Part shown: positions 7,637 through 61,916 of the stretch, piece after piece
How positions within the stretch are numbered: position 1 is the first letter of the stretch
How the letters are laid out: each line of letters begins with the position of its first letter
Position numbers and translations under genes: made by a program
Notes under the pieces: generated by a model
The model's input: the letters and a program-made list of their open reading frames with translations, nothing else
Databases searched by the model: none
Told to the model about the DNA's origin: nothing
NCBI GenBank assembly: GCA_021772975.1
Contig: JAJFKY010000011.1
Span: 1 to 64,000 of the forward strand
Length of the DNA stretch: 64,000 nucleotides
Source of the DNA: Gammaproteobacteria bacterium
Lineage (GTDB): Bacteria; Pseudomonadota; Gammaproteobacteria; Xanthomonadales; Wenzhouxiangellaceae
Direction: 5' to 3'

Positions 7637-8056
7637 TTGAATGGATTAGCCAAATTCAGACAGCGCGATATACCCCTAAGGCGTCAAATCCTTAGTATGT
7701 TGGTACTTGCGTGGTTGCTGCTGGCGCTGAATCCATGCTTGATGGCGATGGGAGCGGAAGATGATTGCACTCATTGTCCGCCTGTTAATAACTGCGCGGC
7801 ACCAGCGACTGATTCGCATCCTGGAAGCCACTGTGTATTTGATGATCAGCTTGAAATCAAGCTGCAGGATGTTCAGAGTAATCATCAAGCAGATAAGCAA
7901 GCTAACCATCCGAAGAAACCACCCTTTACCTATCTGGTGGTGGACGATACACCTGCCATAGCGGTTGTTTCACGTCCTTTGCCTGACCGTCTGCTGGCGC
8001 TCAATCATTCCAGCGACCCTCCACTCCACGTACTGTACTGCGTCTATCTGATCTAG
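7637..8056 (+). CDS. Small exported Cys/His-containing protein leading the cus operon
   Basis: This predicted 139-residue protein begins with TTG; the first in-frame ATG is 60 bases later (7697). Residues about 15-38 form a hydrophobic signal-like segment, followed by a cysteine cluster, CTHCPPVNNC. The remainder is polar and His-containing. It lies 57 bases upstream of the cusC-like gene on the same strand, so a periplasmic copper-associated role is plausible, but I do not recognise a characterised family. Copper-linked small proteins of the DUF2946 kind are a possible comparison. A TATACT hexamer at 7604-7609 could be the operon -10; there is no good -35, which would suit an activator-dependent promoter. 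Confidence 0.6.
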   Translation: MNGLAKFRQRDIPLRRQILSMLVLAWLLLALNPCLMAMGAEDDCTHCPPVNNCAAPATDSHPGSHCVFDDQLEIKLQDVQSNHQADKQANHPKKPPFTYLVVDDTPAIAVVSRPLPDRLLALNHSSDPPLHVLYCVYLI

Positions 8057-8113: not shown

Positions 8114-9451
8114 ATGTCTGTTGCTATGGGGCGTCGGTCCCGAAAATTACTCATCCATGGGTTACTGTTTTTTGTCAGCGCATTGCCGGTGTTGCCCGGC
8201 TATGCTCAAGCGCCTGATGCCCGGCAGGATAATAACGGGCAATTGAGGCTGGCGGCCGCCGTCGAAATCGCCCTCATGCAAAACCCAGGCCTGGCTGCCT
8301 TTGACGCTTTGTCAGATGCACTGGCAACCCGGCCGTCTCAGGCCGGTGCATTACCGGATCCGGTGTTGTCACTGAACGCGCTTAACCTGCCGACCAACAG
8401 CTTTGCGTTGGGTCAGGAGCAGATGACCCAGCTGCAGGTGGGGCTCAGCCAGCGGTTTCCTTTTCCCGGCAAGCGCAAGCTGATGCGCGTCACCGCCGAA
8501 TATGAAGCCAGCGCGGGCGAGGCACGGGTCACGGAGCAGCGCGATGCGCTGCGAGGAGCCGTGCGCAGTGCCTGGTGGCAATTGTTTTATGTTGAACGCG
8601 CGCTGGACACGGTGAGCAAGAATCAGCGGCTGATGCGTGATTTTGTAGAACTGGCCGAAACCAAATACGCGGTCGGGGATGGCTTGCAGCAGGATGTGTT
8701 GCTGGCACAGTTGGAACTGTCGCGCCTGCTTGATCTTGAGCTGGCGCTCAGCGGCCAGCGGCGCGGTGCTCAGGCCAGGCTGAACGCCTTGCTCAATCGT
8801 CCGTCTGATCAGCCGGTGACACTGGCGGACACGCCACCCAATGAACGTTTGCCGAAATTGCCGTCGGAGCCGGACCTGCTTAACAGCGCGGTAGAGCTCC
8901 GCGCCTCACTGAAAGTGCAGCACGATCTGCTGGAGGCAGCCGAGCAACGTCTGGCACTGGCCAAACGTGACGTGTATCCCGACTTCCGGCTGGGCGCCGG
9001 CTATGGTTTCCGGCAAGGTGATGATCCGCTGCGCGGTGGTCCCCGCTCTGATCTGTTCAGTGTCATGTTCAGTATCAACATACCGTTGTATTTTGGCAGT
9101 AAACAAAGCAAAGCGATCGATCAGCGTGGCAGCGAGCTTATTCAGCAAAGTTATCTGCTAACCGACACCCTGCGCAGCATTGAATCTCAGGTCAGCCGCC
9201 ATTTGGCCGATTATGAGGCTGCGCGGCAGCAAGTTTCGCTACTCAATACCGCCATCATTCCACAAGCCCGGCAGACGGTAGCTTCGATGCTGGCCGGTTA
9301 CCAGGTAAACCAGGTCGATTTCCTTAACGTCATCAATGGGCAACTCACGCTTTATAACGCCGAGCTCAGTTACTGGGAGGCACTTAGAAACGCCAAGCAA
9401 GCCCTCGCCGGGGTAGCAGCGGCCACCGGACGGGAGACTTTGTATGAATAA
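8114..9451 (+). CDS. cusC: CusC-like outer-membrane channel (TolC family)
   Basis: This outer-membrane factor would form the exit duct of a tripartite metal efflux pump. It has 445 residues with an N-terminal signal sequence (about 1-33, ending near YAQA). Two outer-membrane efflux repeats contain long helices and beta segments such as LGAGYGFRQGDDPLRGG and YFGSKQSKAIDQR. It belongs to the heavy-metal CzcC/CusC branch of TolC proteins. Its end overlaps the adaptor gene by 8 bases. Confidence 0.86.
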   Translation: MSVAMGRRSRKLLIHGLLFFVSALPVLPGYAQAPDARQDNNGQLRLAAAVEIALMQNPGLAAFDALSDALATRPSQAGALPDPVLSLNALNLPTNSFALGQEQMTQLQVGLSQRFPFPGKRKLMRVTAEYEASAGEARVTEQRDALRGAVRSAWWQLFYVERALDTVSKNQRLMRDFVELAETKYAVGDGLQQDVLLAQLELSRLLDLELALSGQRRGAQARLNALLNRPSDQPVTLADTPPNERLPKLPSEPDLLNSAVELRASLKVQHDLLEAAEQRLALAKRDVYPDFRLGAGYGFRQGDDPLRGGPRSDLFSVMFSINIPLYFGSKQSKAIDQRGSELIQQSYLLTDTLRSIESQVSRHLADYEAARQQVSLLNTAIIPQARQTVASMLAGYQVNQVDFLNVINGQLTLYNAELSYWEALRNAKQALAGVAAATGRETLYE

Positions 9452-10862
9452 ACTGATGGTAGCGATTTTGCTGCTGGTGGCGCTGCTCACGGGCGCCGCG
9501 CTGAGTTATTGGCTGGTTGGCACTGCACCCGCACCGATCGCGGAGTCTGTCACCGGCAATGACCGCGAACCCTTATTTTACCGTAACCCGATGGATTCGG
9601 AAGTCACCTCGCCGGTGCCCGCCAAGGACAACATGGGCATGGATTATATTCCGGTGTATGCCGACGCACAGCAGGACGATACGCCAGCGGGGACCGTACG
9701 CATTGATCCGGTAACCACCCAATCAATGGGGGTGCGCACCGCGCTGGCGCAGCGGCGCAGTTTGTCACGCGACATCCAGACACTGGGCCGTGTTGATTAT
9801 GATGAAAAACGAATTACCCGGCTGCATCCCAAGACCGAAGGCTGGATTGATGAACAGTTTATCGAGACCACCGGTGAGTCCATCCGCAAGGATGAGATAC
9901 TGCTCAGTATTTATTCACCACGGCTGGTATCCACCCAACAGGAATATCTGCTGGCATTGAACAATTATGCAACGCTGAGCCAGAGCCCGTTCGAGCATGT
10001 GGGCCGCGACGCCGCCAGCCTGTTGGAAACCACCGAGCAACGCTTGCGTTTGATGGACGTACCCGAGCATCAGATCGCCGAGCTCAAAGCGTCACGCAAT
10101 ATCAAAAAGCAACTGCATATTCATTCCCCGGTTAGTGGGGTTGTGATTCATATCGGCGTGCGTGAAGGTCAGTATGTGACACCACAAAATGAGCTGTATT
10201 TCATTACTGATCTGACGCGCGTATGGGTGTATGTGGATATTTACGAGCAAGAACTGCCCTGGGTCCGGGTCGGTGATCAAGCCGAGATGCAGGTAGATGC
10301 TGCGCCAGGACGCACTTTTATCGGGCAGCTTAGCTATATTTATCCCTATACCGAGAGCAACACGCGCACCACCAAGGCGCGCCTGGAATTTGACAATGAC
10401 GACTTGTTGCTCAAGCCGAATATGTTTGCTGATATCCGAATTCGTGCCAATCCAAGAGCCGATGCCGTGGCGGTACCGAGTGAGGCGGTGGTGCGTTCCG
10501 GGCTGCGTGAGAAGTTGTTTGTGGTCAGGGCACCCGGCCAGTTTGAACCACGTGAGGTTGAAATCGGCGTCAGCAGCGATGGCTGGACGGAGATACTCAA
10601 GGGCATTGCAGCGGGTGAGCGCGTGGTCACCTCCGCCCAGTTCCTGATCGATTCAGAATCGAAACTGACGGAGGCCGCCGCCAAGTTAATGCCTGCCGGT
10701 GATCAAGATAACGCTAGTGATAACGATAACGATCCGGGCATGCAACAGCATCAGGACATGCAAACGCATGACAGTGACAAATCCGGTGAAATGCAGCATG
10801 ACAGCATGCCTGGGGATGAAGGCTCGCAGCTTATGCACCAGCATAACGGGAGCTCGCCATGA
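9444..10862 (+). CDS. cusB: CusB-like periplasmic adaptor with heavy-metal binding domain
   Basis: This 472-residue membrane-fusion protein links the inner-membrane pump to the outer-membrane channel. A single N-terminal membrane anchor is followed by a heavy-metal-binding domain (about 45-75, with YRNPMDS and DNMGMDYIPVY). Then come the barrel-sandwich hybrid and helical hairpin regions of the CusB/HlyD family. The last 45 residues or so are rich in His and Met (for example MQQHQDMQTHDSDKSGEM), consistent with Cu(I)/Ag(I) chelation. It overlaps the pump gene by 4 bases. Confidence 0.92.
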   Translation: MNKLMVAILLLVALLTGAALSYWLVGTAPAPIAESVTGNDREPLFYRNPMDSEVTSPVPAKDNMGMDYIPVYADAQQDDTPAGTVRIDPVTTQSMGVRTALAQRRSLSRDIQTLGRVDYDEKRITRLHPKTEGWIDEQFIETTGESIRKDEILLSIYSPRLVSTQQEYLLALNNYATLSQSPFEHVGRDAASLLETTEQRLRLMDVPEHQIAELKASRNIKKQLHIHSPVSGVVIHIGVREGQYVTPQNELYFITDLTRVWVYVDIYEQELPWVRVGDQAEMQVDAAPGRTFIGQLSYIYPYTESNTRTTKARLEFDNDDLLLKPNMFADIRIRANPRADAVAVPSEAVVRSGLREKLFVVRAPGQFEPREVEIGVSSDGWTEILKGIAAGERVVTSAQFLIDSESKLTEAAAKLMPAGDQDNASDNDNDPGMQQHQDMQTHDSDKSGEMQHDSMPGDEGSQLMHQHNGSSP

Positions 10863-13800
10863 TTCAGAGCATTATCTCCGCAGCGCTGAAAAATCGCGTG
10901 CTGGTGCTGATCTTCACCCTGATTGCTATTGCCGCCGGACTGTTGGCGTTGCGTACTATGCCGCTGGATGCGATCCCGGATTTATCGGATGTACAGGTGA
11001 TTGTCTTCACCGAGTTCCCCGGTCAGGCGCCACAGGTGGTCGAGGATCAGGTGACCTATCCGCTGACCACTTCGATGCTGGCGGTGCCGTTTGCCAAAGT
11101 GGTGCGTGGTTATTCCTTCTTCGGTTTTTCGTTTGTCTATATTCTGTTTGAAGACGGCACCGACATGTACTGGGCGCGCTCGCGTGTGCTGGAGTACCTC
11201 AACTATGTCAGCAGTCAACTACCCAGCAGTGTGACTCCCACGCTCGGCCCCGACGCCACCGGTGTCGGCTGGGTATACGAATATGCATTGGTAGACCGCA
11301 CCGGGCAACACGATCTGGCGCAATTGCGTTCCCTGCAGGACTGGTATCTGCGCTATCAGTTGCAAACCGTATCGGGCGTGGCCGAGGTGGCCTCGGTGGG
11401 TGGTTATGTCAAGCAATACCAGGTTGAAGTTGATCCAGCAGCGCTGGCTAACTACGGTATTTCACTGTCAAATGTGCGCACGGCTATCCAGCGCTCCAAC
11501 AACGATGTTGGCGGACGGCTGGTGGAAATGGCGGAGACCGAGTACATGGTCCGCGGGCTTGGCTATATCACCAGTATTGATGATCTGCGCACAATTCCGG
11601 TCGGCACTGACGGGCAGGGTACGCCGATCCGCCTGGCGGATATTGCCGAGGTGCATCTTGGCCCTGAATTGCGTCGTGGCCTGGCTGAGTTGAACGGCGA
11701 AGGTGAGGTGGCCGGCGGGGTGGTCATTATGCGCTACGGCGGTGATGCCCTGGCGACAATTCAAGCCGTGCGGGACAAACTCGAGGAGCTTAAGAGCGGG
11801 TTGCCGGCAGGGGTGGAAATTGTCACCACCTATGACCGCGGAGCGCTTATAGAAAGCGCGGTCGATAACCTGCAAAGCAAGCTGATTGAGGAACTGATCG
11901 TGGTCAGCTTGATTTGCATGTTGTTCCTGCTGCACGTGCGCTCGGCGTTGGTGGCGGTGATCACCCTGCCAATCGGTGTGTTGCTGGCATTTCTGATCAT
12001 GCGTGGCCAGGGCTTATCGGCCAATATCATGTCCCTGGGGGGTATCGCGATCGCGGTCGGCGCGATGGTCGATGGTGCGATCGTAATGATCGAAAACGCG
12101 CACAAGCATCTGGAACAGGCAACGCTTGATGCGGGCGGGCGGCTGTCATCGTCACAGCGTTGGCGTGCCATTGATAGCGCTGCCCGCGAAGTCGGACCCG
12201 CGTTGTTTTTCAGCTTGTTGATCATCACGGTGTCATTCCTGCCGGTGTTCACTCTGCAAGCGCAGGAAGGCCGTTTATTTAGCCCACTCGCTTTTACCAA
12301 AACCTATGCTATGGCTGCTTCCGCCATACTGGCGATAACATTGACCCCCGTGCTGATGGGCTATCTGATTCGTGGCAAGATATTGGCCGAAGCCAAGAAT
12401 CCCATTAACCGTGTGCTGCACTACCTGCATACCCCGGTGCTCAAGCTGGCTATGGCCTGGCGCTGGTTGACGTTGCTGCTGGCGGCTGCTTTGTTGACGG
12501 TAACCATCTGGCCATTGGCACAATTGGGCTCCGAATTTATGCCGCCACTGGATGAAGGCGACATTCTCTATATGCCGACCACCTTTCCCGGTATCTCCAT
12601 CACCAAAGCCAGAGAGCTGCTGCAACAGACCGACAAGATTCTGAAAACCTTTCCGGAAGTCCTGACCGTATTTGGCAAGGTCGGACGGGCGGAAACGGCA
12701 ACCGATCCGGCGCCGCTGACGATGCTGGAAACCACTGTGCGGCTGCATCCGCGTGAGCTCTGGCCTGACCCGGATAAGACCACCCGTGAGCTGATGAGTG
12801 AAATGGATGCGGCCATTCGTTTCCCTGGCGTTGCCAATGCCTGGACCATGCCGATCAAAACTCGCATCGATATGCTGTCTACCGGTATCAAGACACCGGT
12901 GGGGATCAAGGTATCCGGACCCGACTTGAGCGAACTGCAGCGGATTGGCGAGGACATTGAGCGTGCCCTGAAAACACTGCCGGATACGCTCTCAGCTTAT
13001 GCCGATCGTGCCGTTGGTGGTTATTATCTGGATTTCGACATTGATCGCGAACGGGCCGCACGCTATGGGCTGACAGTTGGTGACGTACAGGATGTGATCC
13101 AGACTGCCATCGGCGGGATGAATATCACTCAGACAGTTGAAGGGCTGGAGCGCTATCCGGTCAACCTGCGTTATCCGCGTGAGTTGCGCGATAATATCGA
13201 TTCACTCAAGCGGGTATTGCTGCCGATTCCCAGCGGTGCTCAAATTCCACTATCACTGGTGGCCGAGGTGGCGATGCGCCGCGGACCGCCTTCGATAAAA
13301 AGCGAGAATGCCCGGCCCAACGCCTGGATCTATGTTGATATCGACGGTTCGGATGTAGGCGGCTACGTGCAGCGTGCCCGGCAAGCGGTACGTGAACAGA
13401 TTGAATTACCAGTTGGTTATACCCTGGCATGGTCCGGGCAGTTCGAATACATGCAGCGCGCGGCCGAGCGGCTCAAACTGGTAATTCCAGCGACGCTAGC
13501 GATCATTTTTCTGCTGTTGTATTTAAATTTTCGTAACATTTCGGCGCCACTGGTGGTAATGCTGTCGATTCCATTTGCTCTGGTCGGCGGCGTCTGGATA
13601 TTGTGGGTTTATGACTTCAATGTATCGGTTGCCGTAGCGGTCGGCTTTATCGCGTTGGCTGGCGTGGCGGCCGAGATCGGGGTGCTGGTATTGACCTTTA
13701 TTGATCAAGTAGTGGCTGAAAGGCGCCGCGAACTGGGGCGCCATCTACGTGCTGATGAATTGCGTGCAGCAGTACTGCGCGGCACCGCTGAACGCGTGCG

Positions 13801-14014
13801 GCCGATCGCGATGACGGCAGCGTCTACAATCGCTGGGCTATTGCCGATTTTTTGGGGACATGGCACCGGCTCGGAAGTGATGCGGCGTATCGCCGCGCCC
13901 ATGGTTGGCGGTATGCTGACCACTACCGTGTTATGTCTGCTGGTGTTGCCGGTTATTTACAGTTTCGTGCTGCAGTTCAAGGAACGCTCACAGTCGGCTA
14001 TGACGACTCGATAA
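10859..14014 (+). CDS. cusA: CusA-like Cu(I)/Ag(I) RND efflux pump
   Basis: This 1051-residue proton-driven heavy-metal exporter lies in the inner membrane. It has the RND layout of twelve helices and two large periplasmic loops. The proton relay Asp is in VGAMVDGAIVMIEN, and Glu is in GVAAEIGVLVL. Methionines in LYMP, LTMLET and RIDMLSTGIK appear to correspond to Met573, Met623 and Met672 of E. coli CusA, which bind monovalent copper and silver. This separates it from CzcA-type divalent cation pumps. It is the last gene of the overlapping cusCBA operon. Confidence 0.94.
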   Translation: MIQSIISAALKNRVLVLIFTLIAIAAGLLALRTMPLDAIPDLSDVQVIVFTEFPGQAPQVVEDQVTYPLTTSMLAVPFAKVVRGYSFFGFSFVYILFEDGTDMYWARSRVLEYLNYVSSQLPSSVTPTLGPDATGVGWVYEYALVDRTGQHDLAQLRSLQDWYLRYQLQTVSGVAEVASVGGYVKQYQVEVDPAALANYGISLSNVRTAIQRSNNDVGGRLVEMAETEYMVRGLGYITSIDDLRTIPVGTDGQGTPIRLADIAEVHLGPELRRGLAELNGEGEVAGGVVIMRYGGDALATIQAVRDKLEELKSGLPAGVEIVTTYDRGALIESAVDNLQSKLIEELIVVSLICMLFLLHVRSALVAVITLPIGVLLAFLIMRGQGLSANIMSLGGIAIAVGAMVDGAIVMIENAHKHLEQATLDAGGRLSSSQRWRAIDSAAREVGPALFFSLLIITVSFLPVFTLQAQEGRLFSPLAFTKTYAMAASAILAITLTPVLMGYLIRGKILAEAKNPINRVLHYLHTPVLKLAMAWRWLTLLLAAALLTVTIWPLAQLGSEFMPPLDEGDILYMPTTFPGISITKARELLQQTDKILKTFPEVLTVFGKVGRAETATDPAPLTMLETTVRLHPRELWPDPDKTTRELMSEMDAAIRFPGVANAWTMPIKTRIDMLSTGIKTPVGIKVSGPDLSELQRIGEDIERALKTLPDTLSAYADRAVGGYYLDFDIDRERAARYGLTVGDVQDVIQTAIGGMNITQTVEGLERYPVNLRYPRELRDNIDSLKRVLLPIPSGAQIPLSLVAEVAMRRGPPSIKSENARPNAWIYVDIDGSDVGGYVQRARQAVREQIELPVGYTLAWSGQFEYMQRAAERLKLVIPATLAIIFLLLYLNFRNISAPLVVMLSIPFALVGGVWILWVYDFNVSVAVAVGFIALAGVAAEIGVLVLTFIDQVVAERRRELGRHLRADELRAAVLRGTAERVRPIAMTAASTIAGLLPIFWGHGTGSEVMRRIAAPMVGGMLTTTVLCLLVLPVIYSFVLQFKERSQSAMTTR

Positions 14015-14241: not shown

Positions 14242-15480
14242 ATGGCTATTAATTCGGTAAACAATCCCTTATCCATATTCTCGGCGATATTGCTGACTAT
14301 GTGCCTGATGCCGATTGACAGTCTGGCGCTGGAGTTGTCAGAACTGGCGTCACCGGCCAGCGGACATAGCGCGCAACCCCATTTATCCCGAGGCGTGGAC
14401 GGCAGTTTGTTATTGAGCTGGCTGGAGCATGCCGATGGGCAGGCTGTGTTGCGTTATTCCAGCCTGAACAAAGCTGGCTGGCAAGCCGCCAGCACCGTTG
14501 CCAGCGGCTCTGACTGGTTTGTCAATTGGGCCGATTTCCCCTCGGTCATGCCGGTCAGTGACAGTTTCTGGGCGGCGCATTGGCTGCACAAGCGTCCCGG
14601 CGGTACCTATGCTTATAACGTCACGCTGGCCATTTCCAACGATGCCGGGCATAGCTGGTCTGAACCATTCAGTCCGCATCATGATGGCACGCCCACCGAG
14701 CACGGCTTCGTCAGTCTGTTTCCGTGGCAAGACGGACTCGGTGCAGTGTGGCTGGATGGCCGCAATATGACGCCGGAAGGCCATGCCGTTGCAACCGATC
14801 GGCCTATCCATGAAACAGGCATGACCCTGCGTTCAGCGGTGATCACCGCCACTGGCGAACTGCGGAATCAGCAACTGGTCGATGGGCTGGTGTGTGACTG
14901 CTGTCAGACTGACGTAGCCGTGCTGCCGACCGGTCCAGTGGTGGTTTACCGTAATCGCAATGAGCAGGAAATTCGTGATATCTATGTGACCAGGGCGATC
15001 GACGGCCGTTGGCGGCAACCTGTTGCGGTCAATGATGATCATTGGGAAATAGCCGGTTGTCCGGTAAACGGGCCTGCTATTGCGGCGCAGGGTCAACAGG
15101 TGGCCGTGGCCTGGTATACCGGGGCAAATGAGCAGCCCCGTGTCCGGCTGGCTGTTTCTGATGACGGCGCGCGGACCTTCGGCCCGGCCATTGAGATTGA
15201 TGCGCAACAGCCGGCCGGTCGAGTGGATGTCGAGTTGCTGGCGGATGGCAGTTCAGCGGTGATCTGGATGTGTACCCGGAATAAAGCGCCGGCGTTATGT
15301 TTGCGTCGGGTATCGGCTGACGGCGGGCTGGGTGCTGTCAAGCATCTGGAGGGAATCGGCAAACCGGGTGGCTTTCCGCAGATGATGCAGTTTGAGGACC
15401 AGTTGATACTGGCATGGGTGGAATCCGGCGGAGATAAATCTCAGGTAAAAACCGCGCGCTTACCAATAACGTCCTTTTAG
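14242..15480 (+). CDS. Exported sialidase-fold protein with CDCC motif
   Basis: This 412-residue protein has a hydrophobic N-terminal signal (about 8-30). The rest is beta-propeller-like, with Asp-box repeats such as SNDAGHSWSEPF and SDDGARTFGPAI. A distinctive VCDCCQTD cluster lies in the middle. The catalytic residues of true sialidases are not evident, so an enzyme activity should not be assumed. The four-residue CDCC cluster and the position between cusA and cueR suggest a periplasmic metal-binding role (inference). It starts 227 bases after cusA with no obvious ribosome binding site; separate transcription is possible. Confidence 0.7.
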   Translation: MAINSVNNPLSIFSAILLTMCLMPIDSLALELSELASPASGHSAQPHLSRGVDGSLLLSWLEHADGQAVLRYSSLNKAGWQAASTVASGSDWFVNWADFPSVMPVSDSFWAAHWLHKRPGGTYAYNVTLAISNDAGHSWSEPFSPHHDGTPTEHGFVSLFPWQDGLGAVWLDGRNMTPEGHAVATDRPIHETGMTLRSAVITATGELRNQQLVDGLVCDCCQTDVAVLPTGPVVVYRNRNEQEIRDIYVTRAIDGRWRQPVAVNDDHWEIAGCPVNGPAIAAQGQQVAVAWYTGANEQPRVRLAVSDDGARTFGPAIEIDAQQPAGRVDVELLADGSSAVIWMCTRNKAPALCLRRVSADGGLGAVKHLEGIGKPGGFPQMMQFEDQLILAWVESGGDKSQVKTARLPITSF

Positions 15481-15577: not shown

Positions 15578-15970
15578 CTATTCTTTGCTACCCGCTAAAC
15601 TACCCAAAATCGGACAATCCGGGTCCTGATCACCCGGACAGGCCTGTTCCAGTTTAACCAGGCTTTCACGCATTGCCTGCAACTCGCGCAGTTTTCGGTC
15701 AACTTTGTCCAGATGCTTTTTCAGTATGGCCTTAACTTCAGCGCTGCTGCGGCTGGTGCTTGCATGTAAACCCAGCAGACTGCGGCACTCGTCCACACTA
15801 AAGCCCAGGTTACGTGCGCGTGCTACGAATCCCAGCTGTTGTAACTGATGCTCAGCATAATAGCGATAACCATTGTCGTGACGTGGTGCTTTGACCAGGC
15901 CGATATCTTCATAATAACGAATGGTTTTGGCCGGCAGGCCAGTCTGTTTGGCGGCTTGTCCGATATTCAT
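15578..15970 (-). CDS. cueR: Copper-responsive MerR-family regulator CueR
   Basis: This 130-residue MerR activator has the winged helix-turn-helix at 1-70, then a dimerisation coiled coil. It carries the metal loop CPGDQDPDCP with Cys111 and Cys119, matching Cys112/Cys120 of E. coli CueR. The residue in the SAEV segment (Ser76) corresponds to Ser77 of CueR, which goes with monovalent Cu/Ag sensing. It is divergent from the DUF4396 gene, whose promoter carries a perfect MerR-type operator. Confidence 0.92.
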   Translation of the reverse strand: MNIGQAAKQTGLPAKTIRYYEDIGLVKAPRHDNGYRYYAEHQLQQLGFVARARNLGFSVDECRSLLGLHASTSRSSAEVKAILKKHLDKVDRKLRELQAMRESLVKLEQACPGDQDPDCPILGSLAGSKE

Positions 15971-16000: not shown

Positions 16001-16031
16001 TTGACTTTCCAGTAACTGGAAAGTTTAGTCT
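16001..16031 (+). promoter_or_regulatory. CueR-type operator and promoter of the DUF4396 gene
   Basis: A -35 TTGACT (16001-16006) and a -10 TAGTCT (16026-16031) are separated by 19 bases, the over-long spacing that MerR-family activators correct by twisting DNA. The spacer holds a perfect dyad, ACTTTCCAG and CTGGAAAGT around TAA (16004-16024), close to the known CueR boxes of copA and cueO. It points at the gene starting at 16063, which has AGGA before its ATG. Confidence 0.88.
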
Positions 16032-16062
16032 GTGACTTCTGCCATTATTTTCAGGACACAAC

Positions 16063-16545
16063 ATGACTGAATGTCACCAAAACGAGCACTCTCGGCACGG
16101 CCATACCAATACCCATGCCAGCGGCGGTCAGTGGGTTACCGCGGCACATTCCACCTTGCATTGTCTGAGCGGCTGCGTAATTGGGGAGGTGGCCGGGTTA
16201 ATGATTGGTGTCTGGCTTGGTCTGGGTATCTGGCCAACGATCATTCTGGCGACCACGCTGGCGTATATTTCCGGTATCACTTTGGGTGTGGTACCAGTCA
16301 TGCGGCGTGAGTCGTTAAACTTCTGGCCGGCCTTGCGGATTATCTGGCTGGGTGAGGTGGTTTCCATCGGGGTGATGGAAATCGCCATGAATGCCACCGA
16401 TTACGCCGTCGGCGGAATGCAGGCGGGGTCGGTGTTATCGCCGCTGTTCTGGTTTGGTATTGCGGTGGCGGTACCCGCGGGCTTCCTGGCCGCCTGGCCG
16501 GTGAACTACTGGCTGTTGAGCAGAAATCTTAAAAAATGCCATTAA
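16063..16545 (+). CDS. DUF4396 membrane protein under CueR control
   Basis: This 160-residue integral membrane protein has about four helices. The N-terminus is His-rich (HSRHGHTNTHAS). The core has HCLSGCVIGE in the first helix, then MEIAMNATDY and a PAGFLAAWPVNYWL segment, the hallmarks of DUF4396. Proteins with this domain occur near copper ATPases and copper regulators. The Cys/His/Met residues inside the helices suggest metal contact (inference). The CueR operator directly upstream implies copper induction. The exact transport or chaperone function is unknown. Confidence 0.85.
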   Translation: MTECHQNEHSRHGHTNTHASGGQWVTAAHSTLHCLSGCVIGEVAGLMIGVWLGLGIWPTIILATTLAYISGITLGVVPVMRRESLNFWPALRIIWLGEVVSIGVMEIAMNATDYAVGGMQAGSVLSPLFWFGIAVAVPAGFLAAWPVNYWLLSRNLKKCH

Positions 16546-16730: not shown

Positions 16731-19136
16731 ATGTCGGTGGCTGCATTTTTATCATTGCCCGGTGGGGTTTACGCAACAACCAGGGACGCGCCTGCAACCG
16801 TTAAACTGACCATCGCGGCCTGCCTGGGACTGTGTTCACTGGCCTGGTTGCCGGTGCTGCCGGGCAAGGGGGTGTTGCTGGCGCTGACCGCAGCTGGTCT
16901 GGTTTGTCTGCTACAAGCCCGCTGGCATGTTCTGGCGGTCTTGCTGCTGGGTGGCTGTTGGGCCTGCTGGCAGGCTCAACAGCTGTATCACGTTATTCCT
17001 CCAGAGCATATTAATCAGCCGGTCAAACTGGTGGGGCAGGTGGTCGGGTTGCCCGTGCAGTTACAGGATTTGCAGCGCTTTGTGCTGGAGGTCGGGGCGC
17101 CTGAATGGTTGGCGGGTAAGCGAATCCGAATCAGCTGGTATCGAACTGAACAAACGGTACACAGCGGTCAAAAGTGGCGGTTTATTGGAAAAATAAAACC
17201 GCTTCATGCAGTGGTTAATCCCCACGGATTTGATGCTGCGCGCTGGCTGTTGGCGCAGCGTATCAGTGGCAGTTTAGCCGTGCAGCAGGCTGAGCTGTTG
17301 AGCGCTGCTCCGGCAGGCTATGCGCTGGATCATCGGCGCGCGCAACTGCTGGCCTGGATTCAACACACCCTGCCAGCCGACCAGGCGGCGATCGCCAGCG
17401 CTCTAAGTGTTGGTCAGCGCGGTTTAATCGGGCCGGCTCAGCGGGATATCCTGCTGCGCACCGGCACTGGGCATCTGTTGGCGATCTCCGGTTTGCATAT
17501 CGGTATGGCGGCGCTGTTTGGCTGGTGGCTGGGTCAGTTGCTCACCGTTGCATGGTCTGCTCTACGCAGTGGCCTGGATGATGGCTTGGGTGATGGTCTG
17601 GGCTATGACTTGGCCAATTGCGATGGTTGCTGGCCCGGTGCGGAAGGCATCCGCCTGCTAATGATGTTGCTGGTTGCCATCGGCTACGCGGCTATCTCAG
17701 GTCTGATGGTCAGTACCGGGCGGGCATTGGTGATGCTGTTACTGGCCGCCGCGGCGATGCTGATGCGTCGCCGGATCAGTCCGGCCCGAGTGCTGTTGGC
17801 GGCGTTGCTGATGCTGTTACTGTATAACCCAATGGTGACATTGGGGGCCGGCTTCTGGCTGTCGTTTGGTGCGGTTTTCTGGCTGTGGTGGTCGCTGCAT
17901 GGCCGCTTGAGTCAGGGGCGCTGGTGGCAGCGTCTGATGGTGATTCAGGTGGTCTTGCTGCTGGGTATGTCGCCGCTGCAACTGGTCTGGTTTCAGCAAT
18001 TCAGTCTATTGGCGCTGCCGGCCAATCTGTTTGCCATTCCACTGGTCAGCGGATTGATTCTGCCCTTGCTGCTATTGGCGGTGCTGCTGCACAGCATGGC
18101 ACTGCCCGGCGCCGACATGCTGCTTCGCGCCGGCGGTGAACTGCTGCATTATCTGCACATTGTGCTGGCCTGGCTGGCGGGGTTTGAGTTCAGTGCCGTG
18201 TCGCTGACACCGTCCGATCAACCGGCCAGTCTGTTACTGGCATTAGTGGGCGGCGCCTGGTTGCTGCTGCCGCGTGGCTGGCCGCTGCGCTGGATCGGCC
18301 TGCTGCTGATGCTGCCGTTGTGTTTCCCGGGCAAGATCAGACCTGCCCACGGACACTGGGAAATGCAGGTCTTTGATGTCGGCCAGGGGCTGGCGGTGGC
18401 GATCCGGACCCGCGGGCATGTGCTGGTTTACGACACCGGTCCGGGAGATGGGCTGGGCCGCGATCTGGTGCAGGCAGCGCTGGTGCCTGTGTTACGTCGC
18501 TGGAATTGGGCCAGAGTTGACCGCTTAATCATCAGTCATGGCGATCTCGATCATGCCGGTGGCTATGCCACGGCACTGGCGGAACTGCGGGTTGCTGCAT
18601 CGTTCAGCAGCAAAACCAGGCTGGGACAGCCCTGTCATGCGGGTCACAGCTGGCACTGGGATGGGGTAGATTTCACTTTACTGCATCCCGGTGAATTCCT
18701 GCCTTATCTGGGCAATGACAGCTCCTGTGTGCTGCTGGTGTCATCCGCGCAGGGCCGGTTATTGCTGCCGGGTGATATCAGCAAGGCGGTCGAACAACGT
18801 TTACTGAACCGGTTTGGCGGGCCGCCCGCGGATGTGTTGGTGGTCGCGCATCATGGCAGCAAATCCTCATCCGGAGCGGCCTGGCTGGCGGCGGTTGCGC
18901 CACAACTGGCCGTGATCAGCGCCGGGCGCTGGAATCGTTTTGACATGCCGCACGCTCAGACGACAGCAGCTTTAGCCGGGCAGGGCGTAGCGGTCCTGAA
19001 TACCGCTGAGTGCGGCGCATTACGGGTGCGGACACGCGTTGACCGTCCGCCTCTGGTAACCGCCAGCCGGTGGCGGCAGCGGCGCTGGTGGCAGGCACCC
19101 TGGCATTGCCAGATTAACCCGATGTTTATGCAATGA
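16731..19136 (+). CDS. comEC: ComEC/Rec2 DNA-uptake channel
   Basis: This 801-residue inner-membrane protein carries transforming DNA into the cytoplasm. An N-terminal DUF4131 region and the Competence domain with many helices (about 215-500) are followed by a metallo-beta-lactamase-like domain. That domain has ISHGDLDHAGG and VVAHHGSKSSSG, consistent with a nuclease-type metal site. The length is normal and the frame is intact. The start at 16731 has no strong ribosome binding site, so a nearby start is possible. It precedes exbB by 43 bases, as in many gammaproteobacteria. Confidence 0.93.
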   Translation: MSVAAFLSLPGGVYATTRDAPATVKLTIAACLGLCSLAWLPVLPGKGVLLALTAAGLVCLLQARWHVLAVLLLGGCWACWQAQQLYHVIPPEHINQPVKLVGQVVGLPVQLQDLQRFVLEVGAPEWLAGKRIRISWYRTEQTVHSGQKWRFIGKIKPLHAVVNPHGFDAARWLLAQRISGSLAVQQAELLSAAPAGYALDHRRAQLLAWIQHTLPADQAAIASALSVGQRGLIGPAQRDILLRTGTGHLLAISGLHIGMAALFGWWLGQLLTVAWSALRSGLDDGLGDGLGYDLANCDGCWPGAEGIRLLMMLLVAIGYAAISGLMVSTGRALVMLLLAAAAMLMRRRISPARVLLAALLMLLLYNPMVTLGAGFWLSFGAVFWLWWSLHGRLSQGRWWQRLMVIQVVLLLGMSPLQLVWFQQFSLLALPANLFAIPLVSGLILPLLLLAVLLHSMALPGADMLLRAGGELLHYLHIVLAWLAGFEFSAVSLTPSDQPASLLLALVGGAWLLLPRGWPLRWIGLLLMLPLCFPGKIRPAHGHWEMQVFDVGQGLAVAIRTRGHVLVYDTGPGDGLGRDLVQAALVPVLRRWNWARVDRLIISHGDLDHAGGYATALAELRVAASFSSKTRLGQPCHAGHSWHWDGVDFTLLHPGEFLPYLGNDSSCVLLVSSAQGRLLLPGDISKAVEQRLLNRFGGPPADVLVVAHHGSKSSSGAAWLAAVAPQLAVISAGRWNRFDMPHAQTTAALAGQGVAVLNTAECGALRVRTRVDRPPLVTASRWRQRRWWQAPWHCQINPMFMQ

Positions 19137-60846: not shown

Positions 60847-61236
60847 TCAAGTATCCATTAATTCATCAATGACCGGGCAATCGTTCAAGCTGCCGTCCTG
60901 GCACTTGGCCGTTAATCGGATCAGCGCATTTTCCATCTGCCGCAGATCAAGCAACTTTTTCTGAACATCCAGTAAATGTTCAACCAATAACTCGTGCACA
61001 TCCGAGCAGTCCGGCTGCGTCTGCTGGGCGATTCCAGACAGGCGTTTCACTTCATTCTGGGTAAAGCCCAATGCCCGGCAACGCAGGATAAACTGCAGCC
61101 ATTTGAGGTGCTTACCATGATAGTCCCGGTAACCGTTCGGCAACCGCTCTGGCTTTGGTAACAGTCCGATCTTTTCGTAGTAGCGGATAGTTTCTATCGG
61201 GCAGGCTGCGGTTTCGGCGAGCAGTCCAATTTTCAT
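60847..61236 (-). CDS. CadR/PbrR-type MerR regulator
   Basis: This 129-residue MerR-family metal sensor has a winged HTH and IRYYEKIGLLP. Ligands Cys77, Cys112 and Cys120 (DCSDV and KCQDGSLNDC) match the divalent Cd/Pb/Zn sensors CadR and PbrR and differ from the CueR pair. Its operator faces the cassette on the other strand. Which metal it senses needs a test, because the downstream genes include a MerT-like protein. Confidence 0.88.
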   Translation of the reverse strand: MKIGLLAETAACPIETIRYYEKIGLLPKPERLPNGYRDYHGKHLKWLQFILRCRALGFTQNEVKRLSGIAQQTQPDCSDVHELLVEHLLDVQKKLLDLRQMENALIRLTAKCQDGSLNDCPVIDELMDT

Positions 61237-61251
61237 TTTAGGTTCCTTTAC

Positions 61252-61282
61252 TTGACTCTGTAGTAACTACAGGCTTTAGTAT
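61252..61282 (+). promoter_or_regulatory. MerR-type operator of the metal cassette
   Basis: TTGACT (61252-61257) and TAGTAT (61277-61282) are separated by 19 bases with the dyad CTGTAG-TAA-CTACAG between them. The core CTCTGTAGTAACTACAG is close to CadR/PbrR boxes. Transcription would run into the gene at 61327. Confidence 0.85.
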
Positions 61283-61326
61283 GCATAGCAACGTAGCCAA
61301 ATAGCAAGCCTGAGAGACACTAGCCA

Positions 61327-61536
61327 ATGCCGGACTTTATTCAGTTTTCAAAAATCACCTGTCCGCAGTGCGGGCATATCGAACGCGAGCGGATGCCAAT
61401 CAATGCCTGTCAATACCTTTATGAGTGCAAGGGCTGTGGTCAGTTATTAAGTCCGCAAGCAGGGGATTGTTGTGTGTACTGCTCTTACGGGAGTGTTAAA
61501 TGTCCACCAATCCAGCTTGGCAGTGTTTGTGCGTAG
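61327..61536 (+). CDS. GDCCVxC-type putative metal-binding protein
   Basis: This 69-residue protein has a treble-clef-like beginning (CPQCGHIERER, CKGCGQLL) and the motif AGDCCVYCSYGSVKCPPIQ near its C-terminus. This is the pattern of small GDCCVxC proteins that neighbour mercury and cadmium genes. It has nine Cys in all, so it very likely binds metal. It is the first gene after the MerR-type operator. Confidence 0.8.
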   Translation: MPDFIQFSKITCPQCGHIERERMPINACQYLYECKGCGQLLSPQAGDCCVYCSYGSVKCPPIQLGSVCA

Positions 61537-61538
61537 GC

Positions 61539-61916
61539 ATGCGTGAAGATAAAAAAATAGCAGTCACCAGCGGCAGTGCCGTCGGCTTAAGTGCCTTGTC
61601 GTCATTGATTGGTTTGTGCTGCATCGGGCCTTGGGCGGTTGCTGTGCTGGGTGTTTCAGGCGCTATCACCATGGCTCGATGGCAGCCGTTGCGCCCATAC
61701 TTTCTTGGTGTGGCGGTGATCATGCTGTTATGGGCTTTTTGGCGGGTATATGGCCCGGCACGCAAAAAACTCTGCCAGGCAGGGGTGTGTCCATCCAGGC
61801 CATCTACGTGGCTGCAGCTTAGTCTGTGGTGTGCAGCGATATTGGTGCTGATGGCTTTTTTCTCAGATCAATTGCAATGGTTGTTGGTGGATCCAACGCC
61901 GGAGGGCGTTCGTTAA
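61539..61916 (+). CDS. MerT-like membrane protein
   Basis: From MREDKKIAV the protein has about 125 residues, with three or four membrane helices. SSLIGLCCIGPWAVAVLGVSGA holds the paired Cys typical of the first helix of MerT. LRPYFLGVAVIMLLWAFWRVYG is the second MerT-type block. Cys occurs again in KKLCQAGVCP, near the third helix. MerT moves Hg(II) into the cell, but no MerP or MerA is visible here. Its stop shares a base with the next gene. Confidence 0.82.
   Translation: MREDKKIAVTSGSAVGLSALSSLIGLCCIGPWAVAVLGVSGAITMARWQPLRPYFLGVAVIMLLWAFWRVYGPARKKLCQAGVCPSRPSTWLQLSLWCAAILVLMAFFSDQLQWLLVDPTPEGVR

Follow-up and report, generated by a model that had tools for sequence, protein, structure and literature searches.

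A gene for a small membrane protein of the DUF4396 family lies behind what is, by pattern search, the only predicted CueR target promoter of its genome, and the control of this gene by copper is well supported by its own promoter region and by the loci of its relatives. The protein is probably a previously undescribed copper-resistance protein and perhaps a copper exporter; judged from sequence, the most fitting description is that of an inner-membrane component of the copper-resistance machinery under copper-sensor control. With its sole predicted CueR site driving an uncharacterised four-helix protein and no CopA found, this genome raises the question of how the cell clears cytosolic copper, and the cueR-DUF4396 locus provides one gene on which this question can be tested. 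We found no account of DUF4396 (PF14342) function in the accessible portions of the open-licence literature, and a description elsewhere is possible; the function, once assigned, would carry over to the annotation of many genomes and copper-resistance clusters.

The cueR-DUF4396 divergon

The features discussed below lie within the window, i.e. the whole stretch of 64,000 nucleotides that was analysed:

8114-9451, + strand: CusC-like outer-membrane efflux protein (PF02321, 144.6 bits)
9444-10862, + strand: CusB-like adaptor with a Met/His-rich C-terminal tail (PF16576, 265.6 bits; tail read in the translation)
10859-14014, + strand: CusA/CzcA-family HME-RND permease (TIGR00914, 1273.5 bits, cut-off 701.45)
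15578-15970, - strand: cueR, Cu(I)-responsive MerR-family regulator (TIGR02044, 159.7 bits, equivalog cut-off 147.4)
16001-16006, + strand: -35 element TTGACT, read in the sequence
16004-16024, no strand assigned: CueR operator, perfect 10-1-10 dyad (sequence reading and pattern search)
16026-16031, + strand: -10 element TAGTCT, read in the sequence, 19 bases after the -35 element
16063-16545, + strand: DUF4396 gene, ATG at 16063, 160 amino acids, four predicted transmembrane (TM) helices

The 160-residue open reading frame matches the complete PF14342 profile (124.5 bits, cut-off 27, positions 1-141 of 141), and DUF4396 is the sole Pfam family in the protein at an E-value of 0.001. The initial annotation had identified the gene correctly but had let it extend over 16001-16545; the gene itself comprises 16063-16545, and 16001-16062 are its promoter and leader. 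The His-rich N-terminus and the stretch HCLSGCVIGE to which it had drawn attention are present, the latter as residues 33-42, together with a MEIAMN motif and a C-terminal CH. The gene, which is followed by comEC (16731-19136), runs rightward from 16063 and forms a divergent pair with cueR, which runs leftward from 15970. This opposite neighbour scores above the CueR equivalog cut-off, as its earlier naming implied, its translation contains C111-x7-C119, and on these two features of its sequence it is identified as CueR. The two Cu(I)-binding cysteines of Escherichia coli CueR are C112 and C120, according to the text available of PMC5329002.

The dyad, ACTTTCCAGT-A-ACTGGAAAGT at 16004-16024, has 10-base arms that are fully complementary, and the spacer between TTGACT and TAGTCT comprises 19 bases (16007-16025). 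A 19-bp spacer is a known form of CueR promoters, as given in the accessible part of PMC7911910, and with its dyad in such a spacer the DUF4396 promoter has the form of a CueR-controlled promoter. In the window, the pattern ACYTTCC-N6-TGGAARGT matched the operator site without mismatch on both strands and two other sites with 3 mismatches, amounting to 4 matches at up to 3 mismatches versus 3.11 expected. The longer pattern TTGACYTTCC-N6-TGGAARGT, searched at up to 3 mismatches, gave 8 matches in the 3.7-Mb genome versus 6 for a backwards control; these are the operator site (0 mismatches), its opposite strand (2) and six more with 3 mismatches each. The site upstream of DUF4396 is the only one with 0 or 1 mismatch, so that CueR has no predicted target promoter in this genome other than that of DUF4396. 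The operator that had been called near-ideal for its 19-base spacer and perfect 10-1-10 dyad is therefore not only present but the sole site of this quality in the genome.

The three cus-like genes encode a CusCBA-type HME-RND pump (8114-14014) that had been overlooked in the initial annotation, so that metal-efflux genes are indeed nearby. A BNR-type protein (14242-15480) stands between cusA and cueR; a homologue of it (615 bits) is located upstream of cueR in a sibling genome (L026 4397-5584), and in Kineococcus and Phyllobacterium plasmids the annotation places BNR-type glycosylhydrolases (F510_1955) next to DUF4396. Just upstream of cusC lies a Cys/His-rich open reading frame with a TTG start (7637-8056) and no Pfam or NCBIfam match. 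The window also holds a second MerR-family regulator (60847-61916, - strand; 104 bits to CueR, below the cut-off) and, divergent from it, a MerT-like gene (61500-61916; PF02411, 45.9 bits).

Conservation and gene neighbourhoods in relatives

The protein was aligned with its relatives in 70 rows, of which 67 come from the loci L025-L101 and the others are L016, L018 and the window protein; near-copies, truncated loci and a few uncertain starts were omitted. Twelve residues (T31, H33, C34, C38, E42, W95, E98, M105, E106, M109, N110 and N148) are invariant in all 70 sequences and three are nearly so (D113 in 68, C159 in 65, H160 in 69); the motifs H-C-x2-G-C and M-E-x2-M-N are unchanged in 70/70. 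The N-terminal part averages 4.1 histidines and contains at least three His/Cys in 54 of the 70 sequences. AlphaFold2, run on the 70 sequences, gave four long helices with high confidence (pLDDT 87.5). Lysine and arginine together average 2.96 per sequence in loop 2-3 and 2.84 at the C-terminus but 0.03 and 0.16 in loops 1-2 and 3-4, a distribution that places both ends in the cytosol; the protein is thus predicted to have four TM helices and two cytosolic termini. No solved structure related by sequence to DUF4396 was found. The fold searches stayed at noise level: the best E-value with Foldseek was 0.3, and the best VIA match, a TRIC channel with Z 10.0 and an rmsd of 5.5 for 119 residues, falls in the range that chance alone yields for helical bundles.

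Eighty loci of relatives were collected in one genome-collection scan with patterns from four short DUF4396 proteins, to which type the set is biased. In 53 of them at least one copper-type gene is located within 4 kb (a CopA oxidase, CopB, a Cus gene or a regulator of the MerR or CsoR family), and in 40 such a regulator is present within this distance. Using the same loci at 4-8 kb as control, the rates per 100 kb of DNA examined were 3.9 versus 0.5 for CsoR, 4.4 versus 0.2 for the oxidase, 3.7 versus 0.2 for CopB and 3.5 versus none for the MerR family. When neighbours within 6 kb were clustered, the largest groups after DUF4396 itself were the oxidase (19 loci), MerR (15), CsoR (15) and CopB (10); representatives scored as CopA oxidase (TIGR01480, 764 bits), CopB (PF05275) and CsoR-type repressor (PF02583), and three of the four MerR-family neighbours tested pass the CueR cut-off, the fourth (L094) failing with 116.1 bits. 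The order copA(oxidase)-copB-DUF4396 occurs in several loci, and DUF4396 is a recurrent member gene of these CopA(oxidase)-CopB (Pco/Cop) clusters; to our knowledge, it is not among the known Pco/Cop components. The window genome, by comparison, has the RND pump, whereas its best candidate for a CopA-type oxidase scores 128.8 bits, below the family cut-off of 478.95. In Acidihalobacter yilgarnensis a copper cluster is flanked by DUF4396 and DUF302 proteins, according to the available text of PMC7760498. Six loci with short DUF4396 proteins (L079, L086, L087, L092, L096, L098) share a fixed setting with three gene clusters (c6, c7, c8); no copper regulator was found in them, and most keep CEHH-like N-termini.

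DUF4396 matches are present in 55 plasmid records and in one phage record. Ten plasmids were examined, and in five of these DUF4396 has neighbours linked to copper or heavy metals: L141 (a copper-binding protein with a four-helix-bundle annotation), L142 (a metal-sensitive regulator, HMA and P-ATPase), L146 (P-ATPase and a cation transporter), L148 (a copper-binding protein and an oxidase fusion) and L150 (cueR and an oxidase fusion). A weaker metal context was seen in L145 (RND permease and DUF305), and no copper or heavy-metal genes were found beside DUF4396 in L143, L144, L147 and L149. In both fusions (L148 3821-5656 and L150 3773-5731) DUF4396 comes first, then a linker rich in histidine and an additional hydrophobic segment, and last the multicopper oxidase domain. 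Among plasmids alone, annotated DUF4396 genes occur in proteobacteria, actinobacteria, haloarchaea and a fusobacterium.

Operator types were compared by searching the DNA ahead of DUF4396, to a maximum of 280 bases, for CueR boxes and for the CsoR box published in PMC5057107 (as given in its accessible part), with 100 shuffles each; the comparison excluded L099, L102 and L103 as well as loci whose upstream sequence was shorter than 120 bases. The limits (up to 4 mismatches for CueR, up to 1 for CsoR) were chosen after the scores had been seen, and every box counted beat at least 99 of the 100 shuffles. Where a C-x7-C CueR is adjacent, CueR boxes precede DUF4396 at 10 of 11 loci, as against 0/7 with the other MerR type and 0/12 with an adjacent CsoR, the one CueR-adjacent exception being L104, where just the end of the DUF4396 gene was matched. 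CsoR boxes were found at 10 of the 12 CsoR-adjacent loci (not at L048 and L056), at none of the 11 CueR-adjacent ones and at none of nine in which genes separate CsoR and DUF4396 (a CopA-type oxidase in seven cases); the counts for both box types include close kin (L034/L043, L029/L049/L061, L075/L077/L084/L085) and hence are not independent. Where no regulator is present within 4 kb, a CsoR box was found at L030, L039, L050 and L059 and a CueR-like box at L060. In four loci of Hyphomicrobiales (L075, L077, L084, L085) cueR lies downstream of DUF4396 in the same orientation, with the box upstream of DUF4396. To judge from these searches, the operator type matches the regulator type in relatives without crossing. 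On a quick tree of 109 DUF4396 domains, in which 45 of 106 branches are weakly supported, the CueR label needs 4 changes, 2 of them forced by well-supported branches, and the window protein and its sibling fall within a set of 39 rows of which 19 are CsoR-linked and 2 CueR-linked. These recurrent changes indicate that different copper sensor types gained control of DUF4396 more than once.

The link to copper does not extend to the entire family, because in a WCLIGC clade of 12 rows from small marine genomes the search made found neither CueR nor CsoR within 4 kb. Its neighbours, where readable, are ordinary, the exceptions being a MerR of another type at L130 and a partial oxidase match at L126. 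DUF4396 thus appears to be copper-linked only in part, with the WCLIGC subfamily lacking a clear copper context.

Distribution of copper ATPases

The window assembly is rated 99.9% complete, and no copper P1B ATPase over the family cut-off was found in it (best match 356.5 bits, cut-off 397). This best match has a PF12156 domain and, from this domain and the next gene, reads as a CcoI-type ATPase; the remaining P-type matches are weak. The remark that no copA is nearby was correct and, within the profile search made, extends to the whole genome. The cueR-DUF4396 divergon recurs, with a 0-mismatch box, in the genome of a congener, G114 (L026, Gammaproteobacteria bacterium OFTM154), and in it no copper ATPase over the cut-off was found either (best match 385.7 bits). 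Coordinates and scores that are identical for the genomes behind L073 (Wenzhouxiangella limi) and G037 assign the window to the family of Wenzhouxiangella. Downstream of a second CueR-like box of G114 (2 mismatches; L026 5758-7425, G114 C18:147346) lie genes for a 297-residue protein that matches no Pfam family and for HMA-like and MerT-like proteins.

Of the 200 genomes in the order set, 173 score above the copper ATPase cut-off; about one third have no high-scoring match (E below 1e-150, judged by eye), and the same holds for 3/9 DUF4396 genomes. In the class set, a copper ATPase family match is missing in 11 of 32 DUF4396 genomes, six of these 11 being inferred from absence among the listed matches, versus 25 of 338 others (Fisher p 5e-5, uncorrected for descent); 18 of the 32 have a match at cut-off level as read from E-values. 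Ten of the 11 genomes without a match are of the WCLIGC type, many from few small-genome families, and this association is therefore no evidence for the copper-linked type. For the latter, in the genomes (of unassessed completeness) behind 50 hand-chosen loci of the 80, no ATPase match was present in 17/50 and none over the cut-off in 21/50.

No copper ATPase family match was found in six of nine genomes with a csoR-DUF4396 divergon, a sample that includes metagenome assemblies of unassessed completeness and close kin, and the link to missing ATPases appears strongest for these divergons. Genomes with a cueR-DUF4396 pair, when tested, had a high-scoring CopA in 7/11 cases, so that DUF4396 is not simply a CopA substitute; its role as a general CopA replacement is not borne out. 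Parasphingopyxis marina has a csoR-DUF4396 divergon and no copper ATPase match. In its family, which we take to be Sphingomonadaceae (149 genomes; high-scoring CopA defined by eye as E below 1e-160), a high-scoring CopA was found in 0/4 genomes with short-type DUF4396 versus 79/145 others (p 0.046), a contrast of small numbers that is suggestive only. Genomes of this family with non-short types (L165-L178, L185) had a high-scoring CopA in 14/14 cases versus 65/131 genomes lacking DUF4396 (p 1.2e-4), and in two of them (L173, L177) a CueR-like gene (127-128 bits) is divergent to a DUF4396 gene of WC type by motif.

Proposed function and alternative explanations

Export of copper from the bacterial cytosol is credited mainly to P1B ATPases. 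The cueR-copA and csoR-copA (cueA) divergons share sensors, divergent layout and operator types with the DUF4396 loci, as far as described in the available text of PMC7911910 and PMC5057107. However, they control an ATPase of 800 residues, whereas the DUF4396 divergon controls a four-helix protein of 160 residues that lacks the P-type ATPase domains of CopA, a P1B-1 ATPase; any CopA-like action would be by analogy at most. MerT-type metal transporters resemble DUF4396 as small membrane proteins with first-helix cysteines under the control of a MerR-family sensor; they differ in that MerT is an importer and in that DUF4396 has no PF02411 match at E 0.001. The earlier proposal of a probable Cu/Ag-induced membrane protein gains support from the matched operator and regulator types, the clustering with copper genes and the four predicted helices, while Cu, Ag and Au are indistinguishable as inducers by sequence.

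We favour, with a confidence that stays just short of even, a copper-induced inner-membrane Cu(I) protein that would most likely move Cu(I) out of the cytosol. Rising cytosolic Cu(I) (or Ag, Au) would cause dyad-bound CueR to distort the over-long 19-base spacer, as expected from CueR biology, and the gene would be switched on. Conservation and topology suggest that Cu(I) is taken at the cytosolic side by the His-rich tail, H33-C34-x2-G-C38 and C159-H160; it may then be passed via E42, E98, M105-E106-x2-M109-N110 and D113 along TM1 and TM3 to the periplasm, with proton coupling through the invariant acidic residues as our guess for the energy source. Periplasmic Cu(I) would be handled by the CusCBA-type pump or, in relatives, by CopA multicopper oxidase and CopB. 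The oxidase fusions fit this mechanism, since their His-rich part would be cytosolic and the oxidase would lie beyond one more helix. In the window genome, where no CopA ATPase was found, DUF4396 would perform the cytosolic-export step that CopA performs elsewhere. The more specific idea that short His-rich DUF4396 proteins are ATP-independent inner-membrane Cu(I)/Ag(I) exporters, which replace CopA under CueR or CsoR in some bacteria without P1B-1 ATPases, is put forward tentatively. Some six other residues might just as well hold copper as transport it.

Cu(I) might instead be handed by DUF4396, along the inner membrane or across it, to CopA-type oxidases for their maturation, the gene being copper-induced because the oxidase is. 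The oxidase cluster in 19 loci, the order oxidase-copB-DUF4396 and the oxidase fusions speak for such a delivery factor, but the window genome has no such oxidase over the cut-off and many divergons are oxidase-less in the DNA examined, and we regard this role as unlikely. A membrane-bound buffer, whose His-rich tail and cysteines hold excess Cu(I) on the cytosolic side without transport, would agree with the N-terminal His/Cys content (at least three in 54/70) and with the Csp-type copper-binding protein found as a plasmid neighbour. It would have little need for the most conserved residues (including E98, M105, E106, M109, N110), which are located inside predicted helices, and is improbable. 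We are similarly sceptical of a copper-induced protein with another job, e.g. membrane or redox repair under copper stress: the ordinary surroundings of the WCLIGC clade suggest that the fold may have another base function, but this clade has, by eye, a tryptophan in the place of H33, whereas H33, C34 and C38 are kept in all 70 copper-linked sequences.

Import of Cu(I) to feed cuproproteins deserves mention for a resemblance to the CTR copper importers, which are trimers with three TM helices and an M-x3-M motif in a TM helix. DUF4396 proteins likewise have an invariant M-x3-M (M105, M109) in a TM helix; some small-genome relatives, moreover, lie near a TonB receptor (L116). Unlike CTR, however, the DUF4396 model has four helices, with no Pfam match beyond DUF4396 at E 0.001. 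Both regulators, CueR and CsoR, respond to copper in the cytosol and regulate genes for efflux, according to the accessible part of PMC7558416, which favours export or binding over import; given this control by copper-excess sensors and the linkage to efflux and oxidase genes, an importer is very unlikely. Least credible of all is a chance arrangement in which the dyad serves cueR alone and DUF4396 is a passenger outside copper control, for although a box between divergent genes can serve either one, the -35 element, the 19-base spacer and the -10 element are oriented towards DUF4396, and matching box types recur before DUF4396 in relatives, even where cueR lies downstream.
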